From Bacteroidales bacterium (GTDB lineage: Bacteria; Bacteroidota; Bacteroidia; Bacteroidales; UBA12170): DNA of 33,118 nt. The position numbers and the translations under genes are program-made. Below the pieces are notes generated by a model, which was not told the DNA's origin, ran no database searches, and saw only the letters and a program-made list of their open reading frames with translations. Positions 6,428 to 20,969 of the stretch are shown one piece after another. Location: NCBI GenBank assembly GCA_016933745.1, contig JAFGAK010000089.1, positions 1 through 33,118 of the forward strand, read 5' to 3'. Numbering within the stretch: the first letter of the stretch is position 1; each line of letters opens with the position of its first letter.

Positions 6428-6874
6428 TTAGTTCATAAGCATTTTCTTGGGTATTTTTAAGCGTAGTTCTTTTTTTTGGTAATTGATTACTGCGTGATAC
6501 GTTTTCAAAATATCTCCTCCAATTACACCATCGATGGGCCTCAAACCAAAAATACTAAAAGATTGATTTATATGCTTCATATCAATGATTACGGTCTCGA
6601 AATTCCTTAATTTAAACGTTCCGATCTCAAATTGTTCCAAATTTAGAATCTGACTCTTCATTTCGTTGGTTCCCAATCCGGTAGATAGTTGTTCATTATC
6701 GCTTAATTCCGGATTTTCAACATATTGATGAATTATGTTTGCATCAAAAACACTTCTGGATGCTCCCGTGTCAATCAATAGATTGCAGTCGATATTATTT
6801 ATCTTGCCAGGAGTAATTAGATGGAAGCCATCCGACTCGATGGAAACAAATTCTAAAGGAATTATACAAAGCAT
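6428..6874 (-). CDS. Retropepsin-like aspartic protease (single domain, 148 aa)
   Basis: NCLLIDTGASRSVFD active-site motif and C-terminal FGLRPIDGVIGGDILKTYHAVINYQKKELRL. Confidence 0.8.
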   Translation of the reverse strand: MLCIIPLEFVSIESDGFHLITPGKINNIDCNLLIDTGASRSVFDANIIHQYVENPELSDNEQLSTGLGTNEMKSQILNLEQFEIGTFKLRNFETVIIDMKHINQSFSIFGLRPIDGVIGGDILKTYHAVINYQKKELRLKIPKKMLMN

Positions 6875-7043
6875 GCTCTAAATTTAATTGAACTGCGAAT
6901 TTCTTAAAAAAAGCGCAATAATGAAAAATCTTATAATTTCTTGAGATAAATCTTGGAAAAAAGTCATTTGAATCGACAAATTCACGTTCAAATCAAACCA
7001 TTCAAGTTTTTTTTAGGCAAAATCGTGGAAACAAAAAAAAATA

Positions 7044-7074
7044 TTTGGTAAATCTAAAGATTGTTCTACATTTG
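7044..7074 (+). promoter_or_regulatory. Bacteroidetes-type promoter (-33 TTTG / 19 nt / -7 TACATTTG) for the aromatic operon leader
   Basis: TTTG at 7044-7047, 19-nt spacer, TACATTTG at 7067-7074, matching the known TTTG-N~19-TAnnTTTG consensus. Confidence 0.8.
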
Positions 7075-7081
7075 CAAGCGA

Positions 7082-7135
7082 ATGATGACAATTTATACAT
7101 ACAGCTATTTTTATTTTTGGTATTCGAAACCATAG
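7082..7135 (+). CDS. Aromatic leader peptide 1, MMTIYTYSYFYFWYSKP (attenuator)
   Basis: Direct translation; 5 Tyr, 2 Phe and 1 Trp in 17 codons; just downstream of the promoter; upstream of a terminator hairpin and the aromatic biosynthesis operon. Confidence 0.82.
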   Translation: MMTIYTYSYFYFWYSKP

Positions 7136-7136
7136 A

Positions 7137-7178
7137 GGGATTGCTTGTATATAACGATAAAGTACATAAAAGAGTCCC
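7137..7178 (+). promoter_or_regulatory. Candidate antiterminator hairpin 1
   Basis: GGGAUUGCUU (7137-7146, immediately after the leader 1 stop) can pair with AAGAGUCCC (7170-7178), the 5' arm of terminator 1, with one bulged G and one G-U pair. Confidence 0.65.
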
Positions 7179-7203
7179 GAAGTAATTTGGGACTCTTTTT
7201 TTT
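7168..7203 (+). terminator. Attenuator terminator 1
   Basis: AAAAGAGTCCCGAA-GTAA-TTTGGGACTCTTTT followed by T-run; 14-bp stem (one G-U) with a GNRA-type loop. Confidence 0.9.
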
Positions 7204-7214
7204 GAAATAATAGG

Positions 7215-7268
7215 ATGGCAAATAAATATTGGTTTTTTTATTGGACTTATTATTATCTGTTTTACTAG
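7215..7268 (+). CDS. Aromatic leader peptide 2, MANKYWFFYWTYYYLFY (attenuator)
   Basis: Direct translation; 6 Tyr, 3 Phe and 2 Trp in 17 codons; between terminators 1 and 2. Confidence 0.82.
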   Translation: MANKYWFFYWTYYYLFY

Positions 7269-7310
7269 CAGAATGGATGCATATTGGTTAAACCCTTGCT
7301 GAAGTTCTGT
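7268..7310 (+). promoter_or_regulatory. Candidate antiterminator hairpin 2
   Basis: GCAGAAU (7268-7274, overlapping or adjacent to the leader 2 stop) can pair with GUUCUGU (7304-7310), the 5' arm of terminator 2. Confidence 0.5.
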
Positions 7311-7330
7311 GTACGCAGAGCTTTTTTTTT
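7302..7330 (+). terminator. Attenuator terminator 2
   Basis: AAGTTCTG-tgtacg-CAGAGCTT (one G-U) followed by a run of T; directly upstream of the aminotransferase gene. Confidence 0.78.
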
Positions 7331-7338
7331 GAATTTAG

Positions 7339-8517
7339 ATGAATGATAAAGTGATGAAAATAGTTAAAATACAACCCGCAAATAGAGTTAAAGTAGTGGA
7401 TGAATATTATTTCTCCGTTAAGCTTGCCGAAATACGAAAATTAAATGCCGCCGGTGTTTCTATCATCAATTTGGGAATAGGAAATCCGGATTTAGCTCCT
7501 TCCGAAAACACCATAAACGGATTAAAAGAGGCGGTTGAAAATCCTTCTAATCATGGATATCAGAGTTATACAGGAATTCCTGAATTACGAGAAGCATTTG
7601 CGTCTTTTTATAAAGATCGCTATAAGGTGAGCCTAAATTCGGATAGCGAAATTTTGCCTCTCTTAGGTTCCAAAGAAGGAATCATGCATATTTCCCTCGC
7701 TTTTTTGAATGTTGGCGACGAAGTTTTAGTCCCAAATCCAGCTTATCCGGCATACAAAGCGGTTGCATCGCTCTGCGAAGCAAAATCGGTTAGCTACGAT
7801 TTAAGCGAAGAAAACGATTGGTTTCCTGATTTTGAGGCTCTAGAAAAAAGCGATCTATCCAAAGTAAAAATGATGTGGGTTAATTACCCAAATATGCCAA
7901 CAGGAAAGCTAGCAACCAAGCAATTATTTGAGCAGTTAATTGCCTTTGGCAAAAAACATGGAATCTTAATTGTAAATGATAATCCGTATAGTTTAATCAG
8001 TGCGGGAGAGCCAATTAGTATTTTATCTATTGATGGAGCAAAAGAAGTAGCTATTGAGCTCAACTCCTTGAGTAAATCACATAATATGGCCGGTTGGCGT
8101 GTTGGAATGATTGGAGGAAGTGCTGAATTTATTCATGCTATTTTAAGAGTAAAATCAAACATGGATTCTGGCATGTTTAAACCCATTCAATTAGCTGCAG
8201 CTGAGGCATTGAAAAACCCAAACGATTGGTATACAAGTCAGTTAAAAATTTATGCCGACCGCAAAGCGATTGGACAACAGATCCTTTCAGAGTTGGATTG
8301 TACCTTCGATGAAGATTCTTCCGGTATGTTTATTTGGGCTAAAATCCCAGAATCAGCTGAATCGTCTCAAGTTTTCAGCGAAAATATCTTGAAAAACAAA
8401 CATGTTTTTATCACTCCCGGATTTATTTTTGGATCACAAGGCGAACGCTTTATCCGTCTTTCACTAGCAAACAGCAACCAACTACTAAACGAAGCTTTAA
8501 ACCGTATAAAAAACTAA
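7339..8517 (+). CDS. Pyridoxal-phosphate-dependent class I/II aminotransferase (aromatic operon)
   Basis: INLGIGNPDLAPS, YQSYTGIPELREAFASFY, NYPNMPTGKLA, SLSKSHNMAGWRVGM; 392 aa. Confidence 0.93.
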   Translation: MNDKVMKIVKIQPANRVKVVDEYYFSVKLAEIRKLNAAGVSIINLGIGNPDLAPSENTINGLKEAVENPSNHGYQSYTGIPELREAFASFYKDRYKVSLNSDSEILPLLGSKEGIMHISLAFLNVGDEVLVPNPAYPAYKAVASLCEAKSVSYDLSEENDWFPDFEALEKSDLSKVKMMWVNYPNMPTGKLATKQLFEQLIAFGKKHGILIVNDNPYSLISAGEPISILSIDGAKEVAIELNSLSKSHNMAGWRVGMIGGSAEFIHAILRVKSNMDSGMFKPIQLAAAEALKNPNDWYTSQLKIYADRKAIGQQILSELDCTFDEDSSGMFIWAKIPESAESSQVFSENILKNKHVFITPGFIFGSQGERFIRLSLANSNQLLNEALNRIKN

Positions 8518-8520
8518 AAA

Positions 8521-9369
8521 ATGAAAGTATTTATTATTGGATTGGGAATGATTGGAGGTTCTTTGGCCAAAACCTTGCGCAACAGCAATTTTGCTGATGA
8601 AATTCTGGGTTTTGATAAAGCTACAGAGAATACAGCCTTTTGTCTCGAAAACAACTTAATTGATAGATCAGTCTCTATTGTGGAAGGAGCAAAAGAGGCT
8701 GATATCATACTATTAGCTACTCCCGTTGACAGCATTATGGAATTGATACCTCAATTATTGGATCAATTGGAAGAACAAGTTGTAATAGATATGGGATCGA
8801 CCAAGAAAGAGATTTCGAAGCTTGCAGCAACACATCCAAAAGGTTGCAATTTCGTAGCAGCTCATCCGATGGCAGGCATCGAAAATTCAGGGCCAACAGC
8901 CGCTTTGGAGCAGTTGTTTACAGATAAAGTAGCCATCATCTGTAATCCTGAAAATAACGCACGAATGCCATTAAATCTGGCTAAACTCTTCTTTAAATCG
9001 TTAAAAATGAAGCTGATATTTATGGATGCTGAAGAGCACGATCGAGATTTAGCCTATTTATCACATTTATCACATATTTTATCTTTTTCCTTGGCTTTAA
9101 CAGCTTATAATGTGGAAGATAAAGAAAGGAATATTTTCAATCTAGCAGGCGGTGGATTTGCCTCTACCGTTCGATTGGCTGGAAGCTCAGCTGCGATGTG
9201 GAACCCTGTTTTTCTTCAAAATAAAACCAATATGCTTGAAGCTCTCGAACTCTATATTTCAAACCTGAATTTGTTTAGAGAACATATCAAAAACGAAAAT
9301 AAAGAAGGATTAAATCAATTAATGAATAAATCGAACGCAATCTATAAAATCATAAATCAATCGATATGA
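8521..9369 (+). CDS. tyrA: Prephenate dehydrogenase
   Basis: MKVFIIGLGMIGGSLAKTLR Rossmann motif; AAHPMAGIENSGP; LSHILSFSLAL; operon context. Confidence 0.92.
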   Translation: MKVFIIGLGMIGGSLAKTLRNSNFADEILGFDKATENTAFCLENNLIDRSVSIVEGAKEADIILLATPVDSIMELIPQLLDQLEEQVVIDMGSTKKEISKLAATHPKGCNFVAAHPMAGIENSGPTAALEQLFTDKVAIICNPENNARMPLNLAKLFFKSLKMKLIFMDAEEHDRDLAYLSHLSHILSFSLALTAYNVEDKERNIFNLAGGGFASTVRLAGSSAAMWNPVFLQNKTNMLEALELYISNLNLFREHIKNENKEGLNQLMNKSNAIYKIINQSI

Positions 9370-10460
9370 AAACAAAACTAGACTTACTACCTGTTAACGA
9401 ATGGGGAATTAAATACCATGGCAGACCACTTTTAATGTCGGGGCCTTGCAGTGCAGAAACGGAAGAGCAAGTATTACAAACTGCACAAGCACTGGCTGAT
9501 AGCGGAGTATCTGTATTTAGAGCCGGAATTTGGAAACCACGCACTAGACCAAATAGTTTCGAAGGAGTGGGAGCCGAGGGATTAAAATGGTTGAGCAAAG
9601 TGAAGAAAGAAACCGGTTTAAAAGTAGCTACTGAAGTTGCAAATGCAAAACATACTTACGAGGCGCTCAAACACAATGTGGATGTGCTCTGGATTGGCGC
9701 AAGAACAACCGTGAATCCTTTTGCTGTTCAAGAAATTGCCGATGCATTGGAAGGAGTTGATATTCCTGTATTTATCAAAAATCCGATTAATCCGGATATT
9801 GAGTTATGGATTGGCGCATTGGAACGTATCAATAAAGCTGGAATCACCAAGCTTGGCGCGATTCATAGAGGATTTAGCAGTTATGGCGATGCTGCTTTTC
9901 GGAATGCACCAAATTGGCAAATTCCCATCGAACTTAAAAGACGTTTTCCTGAGCTAATCTTAGTCAATGATCCAAGTCATATTGGTGGTAAAAGAGAACT
10001 TTTAAGAGAAATTTCGCAAAAAGCAATGGATTTGGATTTTGATGGATTGATGATTGAAGTACATCCAAATCCGGATGAAGCTTGGAGCGATGCTAAGCAA
10101 CAAATTACTCCCGATGTATTCAAAGAATTAGTTGCTTCTTTAAAAATCAGAACCAAAGGAAGTGGACAGGAAGAGCAATCGCGTTTATGCGAATTGCGTA
10201 AAAAAATTGACCATTTCGACGATGAATTAATGGATATTATCGAAGCTAGAATGAAAGTAGCCGAAGAAATTGGGGAGTTCAAACGCGAAAATAATATTGT
10301 TGTTTTGCAAAATAGTCGTTGGAATGAAATCCTAGAGCAAAGCATTGCTGTTGGACAATCCAAAGGTCTCAGTTCAGATTTGATAACACGGATTTTCAAA
10401 GCCATTCACCAAGAAAGTATCAACAAACAAACTGAAATTATTAATCGCGTTTTAGTCTAA
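9366..10460 (+). CDS. Bifunctional 3-deoxy-7-phosphoheptulonate synthase / chorismate mutase
   Basis: N-terminal LLMSGPCSAETEEQV...FRAGIWKPRTRPNSFEGVG...IHRGFSS...DPSHIGGKRELL; C-terminal chorismate mutase LCELRKKIDHFDDELMDIIEARMKVAEEIGEFKRENN. Overlaps the tyrA stop by ATGA. Confidence 0.94.
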   Translation: MKTKLDLLPVNEWGIKYHGRPLLMSGPCSAETEEQVLQTAQALADSGVSVFRAGIWKPRTRPNSFEGVGAEGLKWLSKVKKETGLKVATEVANAKHTYEALKHNVDVLWIGARTTVNPFAVQEIADALEGVDIPVFIKNPINPDIELWIGALERINKAGITKLGAIHRGFSSYGDAAFRNAPNWQIPIELKRRFPELILVNDPSHIGGKRELLREISQKAMDLDFDGLMIEVHPNPDEAWSDAKQQITPDVFKELVASLKIRTKGSGQEEQSRLCELRKKIDHFDDELMDIIEARMKVAEEIGEFKRENNIVVLQNSRWNEILEQSIAVGQSKGLSSDLITRIFKAIHQESINKQTEIINRVLV

Positions 10461-10463
10461 ATC

Positions 10464-11720
10464 ATGATTGCAAAAGTTTATCCGGCAACAATCAATGGCT
10501 CCCTGCAAGCACCAGCTTCAAAAAGCATGCTTCAGCGAGCCATTGCGGCTGCATTTCTGAGTAAATCTAAAATTCAAATTTCAGGCTATACGCCAAGTGC
10601 AGATGCAGATGCTGCTTTGGCATTGATCGAAAAACTAGGGTCAAAAGTAAATAGAAATCAAGATCTCATCGAGATTAATTCGGGTGATTTTATTGACCCG
10701 CAACAGCAATTAACGATTGGCGAATCGGGCTTGGGAATTCGACTTTTTTCTCCAATTTTAGCGACTTTCAAAATCAAATTTCGAATTGAAGCCGAAGGAA
10801 CGCTAAGAAAAAGACCGCTTCGTTTGATCGAAGATGTTTTGAGTAAAAACGGCGTTTCGTGTTCTACGAATCAAGGATTTGCGCCAATTGAGATTATTGG
10901 CCCGCTCAAAGGTGGAACTATTTCGTTGGATGCAAGTGAAGGTTCTCAGTTTTTAAGTGGATTATTGATGGCATTGCCTATTAGCCATGTTGATAGCACC
11001 ATTCAGGTTCGTAACTTAAAAAGTAAGCCTTATATCGATATGACCATGCAGTTATTAACCGATTTTGGTGTAAACGTGCAGCATACAGAATACAAAACAT
11101 TTTCGATCAAAGGAAATCAAAACTATCGTGCTAAAAAGTACAAAGTGGAAGGCGATTGGAGTGGAGCAGCCTTTTTGTTAGTTGCAGGAGCAATTGCCGG
11201 AAAATTAACGCTTAAAAATATTCACCAAAATTCTTTGCAAGGCGATAAAAATTGTGTGAAAGTTTTGGAACAATCCGGTGCAATTGTTCTGCAAAAAGAA
11301 AAGGAAATTCGTGTGCAGAAACGAGTGTTGCATGCGTTTGAATACGACGCCACTGAAACGCCGGATTTATTTCCACCTTTAGCTGCATTGGCTGCATCTT
11401 GCGAAGGTGTGAGTATAATCTCAGGTGTAAACCGACTGGAACATAAAGAAAGTAATCGGGCAGAAGCAATTCGGAGTGTTTTAGAAAAGCTTGGTATCAA
11501 AGTGAAAATTGTGGACGATGAAATGCATATTCATGGCGGTAAAGTAAAAGGTGCTGTTGTTTCATCTTTTCACGATCATCGAATAGCAATGATGGCAGCA
11601 GTGATGGCGTTAAATTCAGAAAGCGAAATAGAAATTACGGACGCAGAAAGTATAAATAAATCCTATCCTGGATTTTACGAAGATCTTCAGAAATTAGGTG
11701 TTCCGATTCAGTTTTCTTAA
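10464..11720 (+). CDS. aroA: 3-phosphoshikimate 1-carboxyvinyltransferase (EPSP synthase)
   Basis: GSLQAPASKSMLQRAIAAA, GESGLGIRLFSPI, EGSQFLSGLLMALP, HDHRIAMMAAVMAL. Confidence 0.94.
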   Translation: MIAKVYPATINGSLQAPASKSMLQRAIAAAFLSKSKIQISGYTPSADADAALALIEKLGSKVNRNQDLIEINSGDFIDPQQQLTIGESGLGIRLFSPILATFKIKFRIEAEGTLRKRPLRLIEDVLSKNGVSCSTNQGFAPIEIIGPLKGGTISLDASEGSQFLSGLLMALPISHVDSTIQVRNLKSKPYIDMTMQLLTDFGVNVQHTEYKTFSIKGNQNYRAKKYKVEGDWSGAAFLLVAGAIAGKLTLKNIHQNSLQGDKNCVKVLEQSGAIVLQKEKEIRVQKRVLHAFEYDATETPDLFPPLAALAASCEGVSIISGVNRLEHKESNRAEAIRSVLEKLGIKVKIVDDEMHIHGGKVKGAVVSSFHDHRIAMMAAVMALNSESEIEITDAESINKSYPGFYEDLQKLGVPIQFS

Positions 11721-20081: not shown

Positions 20082-20969
20082 ATGAGCGTAATAATTTCGA
20101 TCGATCCGGGTGCCGGACCTTGTTTTGGTGTGCAAAGAGCTATTCATTTGGCTGAAGGTTTGTTAAGTAAAACAAATCCTTTAGCTTGTTTAGGAGACTT
20201 AATTCACAACGAACAGGAGCTTAATAGATTAAAAGAGAAGGGTTTGAAGGTTGTTTCGCATTGTCAGATTGTTGAGCAAAGTGGGAGCGATTTATTAGTC
20301 AGAGCCCATGGCGAACCTCCTTCAACTTATCGAATAGCGGAAGCTCATCAAGTAAATTTGGTAGATGCTACTTGTCCGATTGTGAAACAATTACAAGAAA
20401 AAATAAAAGAAGCAAGTGAGCGAATGGAAATTGAAAACGGGCAAGTCTTGCTTTTTGGAGATTTAAATCACGCCGAAGTGGCAGGACTGAAAGGATACAG
20501 CAAAGGACGATTTTCGATAATCAGGTCGGTGGAAGACTTGGAAAATATTCGAGTGGATCGGCCAAGCGTTTTCTTTTCACAAACTACCAAATACACATCC
20601 GAGTATCATAAAATAGTGGAGGTATTCAAAGAGATTCGAGCCAAAGAAAATGCCAACCATTATTTCTTAGAAGTCGTCGATTCACAATGTCATTTTGTGG
20701 CCAAACGCGACAAGCAACTGATTGAGTTCTTAAAAGAGAATGAAGTGCTGATTTTTGTGAGTGGAAGCAATAGTTCCAACGGGAATTATCTCTATAAGGT
20801 GGCAAAAAGACATTTAGAGCGGGCATATTTTATTTCAACTCCAACAGAAATCAATTTGAATTGGATTCGGGGAGCAAAGTCCATTGGTATTTCTGGTGCA
20901 ACCTCAACGCCTTATTGGCAATTGGAACTCACTAAAAGCAGAATAAAAGAATTAATTGAGCAAGATTAA
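20082..20969 (+). CDS. ispH: 4-hydroxy-3-methylbut-2-enyl diphosphate reductase
   Basis: GPCFGVQRAIHLAE, CLGDLIHNEQELNRLKEKGL, LVRAHGEPPSTY, DATCPIVKQLQ, NHAEVAGLKGY, FSQTTKY, VSGSNSSNGNYL, GISGATSTPYW. Confidence 0.93.
   Translation: MSVIISIDPGAGPCFGVQRAIHLAEGLLSKTNPLACLGDLIHNEQELNRLKEKGLKVVSHCQIVEQSGSDLLVRAHGEPPSTYRIAEAHQVNLVDATCPIVKQLQEKIKEASERMEIENGQVLLFGDLNHAEVAGLKGYSKGRFSIIRSVEDLENIRVDRPSVFFSQTTKYTSEYHKIVEVFKEIRAKENANHYFLEVVDSQCHFVAKRDKQLIEFLKENEVLIFVSGSNSSNGNYLYKVAKRHLERAYFISTPTEINLNWIRGAKSIGISGATSTPYWQLELTKSRIKELIEQD

Follow-up and report, generated by a model that had tools for sequence, protein, structure and literature searches.

The window analyzed here, a stretch of 33,118 nucleotides, is contig C49 of a metagenome genome (G000; 2.4 Mb, 76% complete) from an uncultured member of the Bacteroidales. 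At positions 7339 to 11720 it carries a tyrosine-pathway operon in the order aminotransferase, tyrA, DAHP synthase/chorismate mutase, and aroA, directly downstream of the second of two successive modules, each with a short open reading frame (ORF) rich in aromatic codons, a candidate antiterminator, and an intrinsic terminator (Table 1). The neighboring gene upstream of module 1 (6428 to 6874) lies on the strand opposite to the leaders; terminator 1 therefore cannot serve that gene and has the leader alone to end. The start assigned to the aminotransferase at 7339 may be too early (7339 to 7356), as the homology of its relatives starts at a Met residue at 7354 (MKIVKIQPANR).

Table 1. Features of the leader region and the operon in the window (leader peptides end at a stop codon)
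Feature	Position	Strand	Basis
Predicted Bacteroidota-type promoter, TTTG-N19-TACATTTG; predicted transcription start about 7079	7044-7074	+	
Leader peptide 1, MTIYTYSYFYFWYSKP (alternative start 7082); predicted 5'UTR about 3 nt	7085-7135	+	Aromatic ORF in 7/7 congeners
Module 1 hairpin 1:2 (7108-7123 with 7127-7140)	7108-7140	+	RNAalifold consensus, 7 species
Module 1 candidate antiterminator strand 2, AGGGAUUGCUUG, pairs with 7169-7179	7136-7147	+	Duplex in all 7 species
Terminator 1 (AAAAGAGTCCCGAA-GTAA-TTTGGGACTCTTTT plus U-run)	7168-7203	+	Sequence, RNAalifold consensus
Leader peptide 2, MANKYWFFYWTYYYLFY; control codons probably Tyr 7248-7256	7215-7268	+	ORF, conservation
Module 2 hairpin 1:2 (7256-7261 with 7267-7272)	7256-7272	+	RNAalifold consensus, 2 pairs changed on both sides
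Module 2 candidate antiterminator strand 2 (GCAGAAU plus inner GCA)	7268-7281	+	Duplex, conservation
Module 2 candidate antiterminator strand 3 (UGC plus GUUCUGU), doubles as 5' arm of terminator 2	7297-7310	+	
Terminator 2 and its U-run	7301-7330	+	Sequence, RNAalifold consensus
Class I aminotransferase (aspC-like), operon gene no. 1	7339-8517	+	Homology
Prephenate dehydrogenase (tyrA)	8521-9369	+	NF006307 above cutoff
DAHP synthase/chorismate mutase	9366-10460	+	Both domains matched, scores below curated cutoffs
aroA (EPSP synthase)	10464-11720	+	TIGR01356 above cutoff

Promoter and module 1

In all seven species compared, a -7 box of the form TAnnTTTG precedes the first start codon of leader 1 by 7 to 8 nt (7067 to 7087 in the window), and TTTG or TTG occurred 18 to 19 nt upstream of this box in all six species with sequence at that position. 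In Flavobacterium psychrophilum, the TAnnTTTG box occupies positions -12 to -5 relative to the start (PMC9723704), a spacing that would set the start in the window at about 7079 and leave a 5'UTR of about 3 nt. The mRNA of leader 1 is accordingly short at its 5' end in prediction, almost leaderless. The distance from box to leader was 17 to 32 nt in most other Bacteroidota leaders. Two Cytophagales loci (L097 and L109) showed only 4 nt between box and start, and their leaders are Tyr-only, ending in YYYYYGQ.

In none of the seven species did the 70 nt ahead of leader 2 contain a TAnnTTTG box. Given that a recognizable promoter was found ahead of leader 1 only, the two gates probably act in series. 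RNA polymerase would have to read through terminator 1 before entering module 2, so that the two gates would be expected to multiply, as in AND logic.

In module 1, the strand GGGAUUGC is able to pair with AAAGAGUCCC. The codons of leader 1 are a mixture of Tyr, Phe, and Trp, with a Trp codon in 7/7 species; leader 2, for its part, carries a Tyr triplet. Tryptophan auxotrophy was considered in relation to the Trp codon of leader 1; trpB was present in G000 and G006, and no clear trpE was found in either of these two genomes.

Leader 2 and the pairings of module 2

The original prediction had placed at this site an extremely aromatic leader peptide with its own antiterminator and terminator, and the ORF (ATG at 7215), its stop codon (TAG, 7266 to 7268), the aromatic count (11 of 17 residues: six Tyr, three Phe, and two Trp), the antiterminator, and the terminator were all located exactly there. 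The aromatic richness of leader 2 is well beyond chance. In dinucleotide-preserving shuffles (20,000 per stretch), an ORF of 8 to 35 codons with at least 11 aromatic residues and an aromatic content of at least 60% arose once in shuffles of the intergenic region (6876 to 7338), and an equally aromatic ORF arose in 0 of 20,000 shuffles of positions 7204 to 7300 alone. Throughout the window, on both strands, the only other ORFs of 8 to 35 codons with at least 7 aromatic residues and at least 40% aromatic content were leader 1 and an unrelated minus-strand ORF with a TTG start at 20444.

The RNAalifold consensus of module 2 comprised hairpin 1:2 and terminator 3:4 (arms 7301 to 7310 and 7315 to 7324; U9 at 7322 to 7330). 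As an alternative, GCAGAAU (7268 to 7274) could form 7 bp with GUUCUGU (7304 to 7310). The core of this 2:3 helix (CAGRAY with GUUCUG) showed standard pairs in 42 of 42 cells across the seven species, versus 31 to 43% when the helix was slid by 1 to 3 columns. Strand 3 of the core is invariant, and hence its support consists of compatible one-sided changes, with no double changes. An inner helix of 2 to 4 bp lengthens the 2:3 pairing and is kept in G004 (L006) through changes on both strands. The summed 2:3 duplex energies were -68.5 for module 1 (shuffled, -31.9; sd, 5.9) and -87.9 for module 2 (shuffled strand 2, -41.5; sd, 5.6), that is, 6 to 8 sd below the shuffles.

The Tyr codons UAU UAU UAY of leader 2 were invariant in 7/7 species, and the gap from the third of them to the start of strand 2 was exactly 12 nt in every case, with different intervening bases. 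The stop codon lay between -6 and +6 nt relative to the start of strand 2, and the Trp and Phe codons varied by species, Trp being absent from L007 and L008. Since the Tyr triplet is fixed at 12 nt and the Trp and Phe codons vary, Tyr was taken as the probable main signal of gate 2. The proposal of an aromatic leader stood (7 to 11 aromatic residues kept), with the addition that the conserved control codons are the Tyr triplet and not aromatic codons in general.

The front edge of a ribosome extends about 12 to 13 nt past the start of its A-site codon. A ribosome awaiting Tyr-tRNA at the triplet would cover strand 1 and free strand 2, and one at the stop codon of leader 2 would cover strand 2. 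As expected of an attenuator, a short ORF with end-product control codons was present and conserved in 7/7 species, the antiterminator and the intrinsic terminator are mutually exclusive, and the predicted geometry places the control codons so that a stalled ribosome would free strand 2 and a finished one would mask it. The invariant Tyr triplet and its placement are in keeping with ribosome-mediated attenuation of the trp type, with Tyr codons in control. Even with the ribosome stalled, the terminator was still the most stable predicted fold for the window and three relatives; the switch would then have to be kinetic, the 2:3 pairing forming before strand 4 is made.

Conservation and recurrence in Bacteroidota

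A search of 148 relatives for the aminotransferase delimited a clade of seven genomes at 69 to 100% identity to the protein of the window (69 to 75% in the congeneric operons; 75% in G001). Leaders 1 and 2 and terminators 1 and 2 were found in 7/7 of these genomes; in G010, for example, the leaders are MTTYTFSYFYYWFRTP and MVNFEFYYGFYYYLD, each followed by a stop codon. Leader peptide sequence drifts outside the aromatic positions and the aromatic frame is kept, with 7 to 11 aromatic residues in the frame of leader 2 and 1 to 5 in the other two frames among the seven species. A disrupted leader 2 beside retained terminators, a pattern that would speak against a leader, was found in none of them, leader 2 being kept in 7/7. 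Together with the fully paired 2:3 cells and the duplex energies below those of shuffles, this supported a second attenuator with its own leader, antiterminator, and terminator in all seven congeners.

A recent duplication of the modules had been judged improbable from the outset, and our data agree. Homology of modules 1 and 2 was considered but could not be demonstrated, their similarity in the window being no greater than that of shuffles (p 0.11); in some relatives a weak, T-rich likeness was seen. As no similarity above shuffles was found in the window and both modules predate the split of the seven species, recent duplication is unlikely. These observations do not separate an independent origin from an old duplication.

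The element is real and conserved, and its layout is not unique to the window genome. Among 126 regions upstream of pheA or aspC from Bacteroidales, Flavobacteriales, Cytophagales, and Saprospirales, aromatic leader-plus-terminator units were single in 88, tandem in 19, and absent by the same rule in 19. Units of any kind were thus found in 107 regions, compared with 1 of 1,260 shuffled controls, which yielded a single unit and no tandem. Single units are common ahead of the pheA/aspC/tyrA operon across Bacteroidota, and tandem units occur in several lineages. Mapped on a 107-row tree of the aminotransferase, the tandem state required 9 changes, 5 of them forced by well-supported branches, which indicates repeated gain or loss of tandem units.

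In the genus of the window, pheA is a separate gene, preceded by a Phe-rich leader in five of the six genomes checked; no such leader was recognized in the sixth, G004. In the window genome (L038; G000:C240:1146-1263), the lone pheA follows a Phe-rich leader, MNNDRLISRFFLFSMHFC and a stop codon, with a terminator, the usual arrangement being a pheA-aspC-tyrA operon. Where trpE was found in the genus, its leaders were Trp-rich: a single WWW leader, MSNTWWWLFNTQ, in G004 (L149) and, in G003 (L150), two Trp leaders in tandem, MNINNWWLLDL and MTNTAKFWWHNSGTRT, along with two terminators. Ahead of ilvD in the window genome (L171; contig C19, -265 to -1 from the ilvD start) lie two Ile/Leu-rich leaders, MTINLNIANIIINILWMSNR and MKIAQITNLIINIINMLILRM, with a terminator each, and the ilvD operon of G006 (L173) has the same two-leader layout. 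Thus, leader codon content follows the pathway (Phe for pheA, Trp for trpE, and Ile/Leu for ilvD), and, with tandem leaders at ilvD and trpE too, doubling is not confined to one operon.

In Cytophagales and some Bacteroidales loci (L089, L096, L097, L105, L109, and L074), the aspC operon lacks pheA and the leader is almost purely Tyr, e.g., MTINTYRTYYYYYGTPA; leaders of operons led by pheA are mixed Phe/Tyr. The counts point to an association between Tyr-rich leaders and the absence of pheA from the aspC operon (raw Mann-Whitney p 5e-12, with 14 of 22 points from one genus). A phylogeny-aware comparison, in which 2 to 3 of 6 independent pairs agreed and none opposed, was not significant (p 0.25), and the association was not retained. 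Also rejected, as an ancestral state of the genus, were the tandem units of G003 and G009, in which pheA is still the first gene, their aminotransferases falling on a long separate branch. These two loci (L033 and L034) bear the same genus label as the window, but their genomes measure 5.1 to 5.2 Mb and their aminotransferase is distant, making the label or the descent of the gene questionable.

Proposed two-gate attenuation and its alternatives

Taken together, positions 7215 to 7330 very probably constitute the second of two serial ribosome-mediated transcription attenuators ahead of the aminotransferase-tyrA-DAHP synthase/chorismate mutase-aroA operon. RNA polymerase would start at about 7079. 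With charged aromatic tRNAs plentiful, the ribosome on leader 1 would reach the stop codon and mask strand 2, allowing terminator 1 to form. If it stalled on Tyr, Phe, or Trp codons, strand 2 (GGGAUU...) would pair with strand 3 and the polymerase would enter module 2. There, a second ribosome would translate leader 2: at the stop codon it would mask CAGAAU, leading to terminator 2, and stalled on the triple Tyr it would cover strand 1 (CUG), leaving CAGAAU, 12 nt downstream, available for pairing with GUUCUG, and the operon would be transcribed. If no ribosome were present, hairpins 1:2 and 3:4 would form and transcription would end. Full expression would require both gates to be open, and the cell would probably read amino-acid shortage twice before synthesizing the enzymes. 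The ORFs, the terminators, the conserved alternative pairings and geometry, and the lack of a recognizable promoter between the modules can be read from the sequence; ribosome stalling, antitermination, transcription-translation coupling, Tyr as the main signal of gate 2, and the multiplication of the two gates are what we infer.

A variant of this reading, in which the two gates are redundant, both sensing general aromatic shortage and the doubling only lowering basal expression and widening the range, comes close to an even prospect: both leaders contain Tyr and Phe codons, and tandem leaders elsewhere in the phylum resemble each other in composition. Against redundancy, the invariant Tyr triplet, always 12 nt from strand 2, is confined to module 2, and leader 1 alone carries a Trp codon in every one of the seven species. 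A joint reading, tentative and rather doubtful as a whole, would make the locus a cis-acting two-input AND gate, gate 1 responding to aromatic amino acids in general, including Trp, and gate 2 to Tyr, within a series-tandem form of attenuation that Bacteroidota would have reached repeatedly and that the genus would use for several pathways (the Tyr operon; ilvD in G000 and G006; trpE in G003).

Parallel modules on two transcripts, with leader 2 under its own promoter, appear improbable; an alternative-sigma promoter overlapping module 1 would escape a consensus scan, but the TAnnTTTG box conserved ahead of leader 1 in 7/7 species has no counterpart in the 70 nt before leader 2. Alternative hairpins by themselves do not name the sensor, which might be a tRNA (T-box), a small molecule, or an RNA-binding protein instead of leader translation. 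Against this, an Rfam scan of the window returned no family at the gathering threshold, the T-box covariance model gave no match in it up to E 10, and leader codons follow the pathway, leaving such a sensor very improbable. Least credible is that the short ORFs are genes for small hydrophobic peptides with a function of their own, followed by ordinary terminators. The terminators are indeed strong and conserved, but the peptides drift except at aromatic positions, terminator 1 has only the leader to end, and the alternative pairings, which would compete with terminator formation, are conserved.

Ribosome-mediated attenuation is a textbook mechanism, and its series arrangement in Bacteroidota is conserved and recurring. 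The same operon exists in natural one-gate and two-gate versions across the phylum, and the gain from doubling, be it dynamic range or logic, and transcription-translation coupling in Bacteroidota become directly testable. Vitreschak et al. reportedly also listed attenuators in Bacteroidetes in 2004. Like Escherichia coli trpL, pheL, and pheM and the Phe_leader family (RF01859), the modules combine an ORF with end-product codons, 1:2, 2:3, and 3:4 pairings, an intrinsic terminator, and a biosynthetic operon. Unlike trpL, pheL, and pheM, they form two complete serial units with probable Tyr control codons and a nearly leaderless leader 1, and show no sequence relation to them. RF01859 was the best Rfam match, in module 1 only and at 26.4 bits, below the cutoff of 55; Bacteroid-trp (RF01692) gave no match in the window at the gathering threshold or at E 10.

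Within the phylum, Guerin 2021 (PMC9723704) proposed leader-peptide attenuation for Flavobacterium amino-acid operons and described a structured, conserved 5' element without an Rfam family ahead of pheA in Flavobacteriaceae, and Bacteroid-trp (Weinberg 2010, PMC2864571) is a cis-regulatory RNA of Bacteroidetes. The present modules share with these elements the phylum and the attenuation proposed for amino-acid operons; tandem units and Tyr control codons go unmentioned in the main passages of the two descriptions. Leader-peptide attenuation in Bacteroidota had thus been suggested previously, and the series tandem appears to be new: no description of series-tandem amino-acid leader peptides was found in the literature searched, mostly outside subscription journals.

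The tandem attenuators of Salmonella mgtCBR, presented as a singular case (Lee and Groisman 2012, PMC3641672), likewise place two short ORFs and two attenuators on one leader RNA. That operon is non-biosynthetic and its sensors differ, mgtM sensing ATP and mgtP proline with additive effects (PMC3641672), whereas in the present operon the two leaders are rich in aromatic residues and have a U-tract terminator apiece, which should make their effects multiplicative. Tandem riboswitches such as Bacillus clausii metE, as cited in PMC3641672, also align two sensors and two terminators in series on one leader; there the RNA binds its ligand directly, whereas here translation is the proposed sensor.
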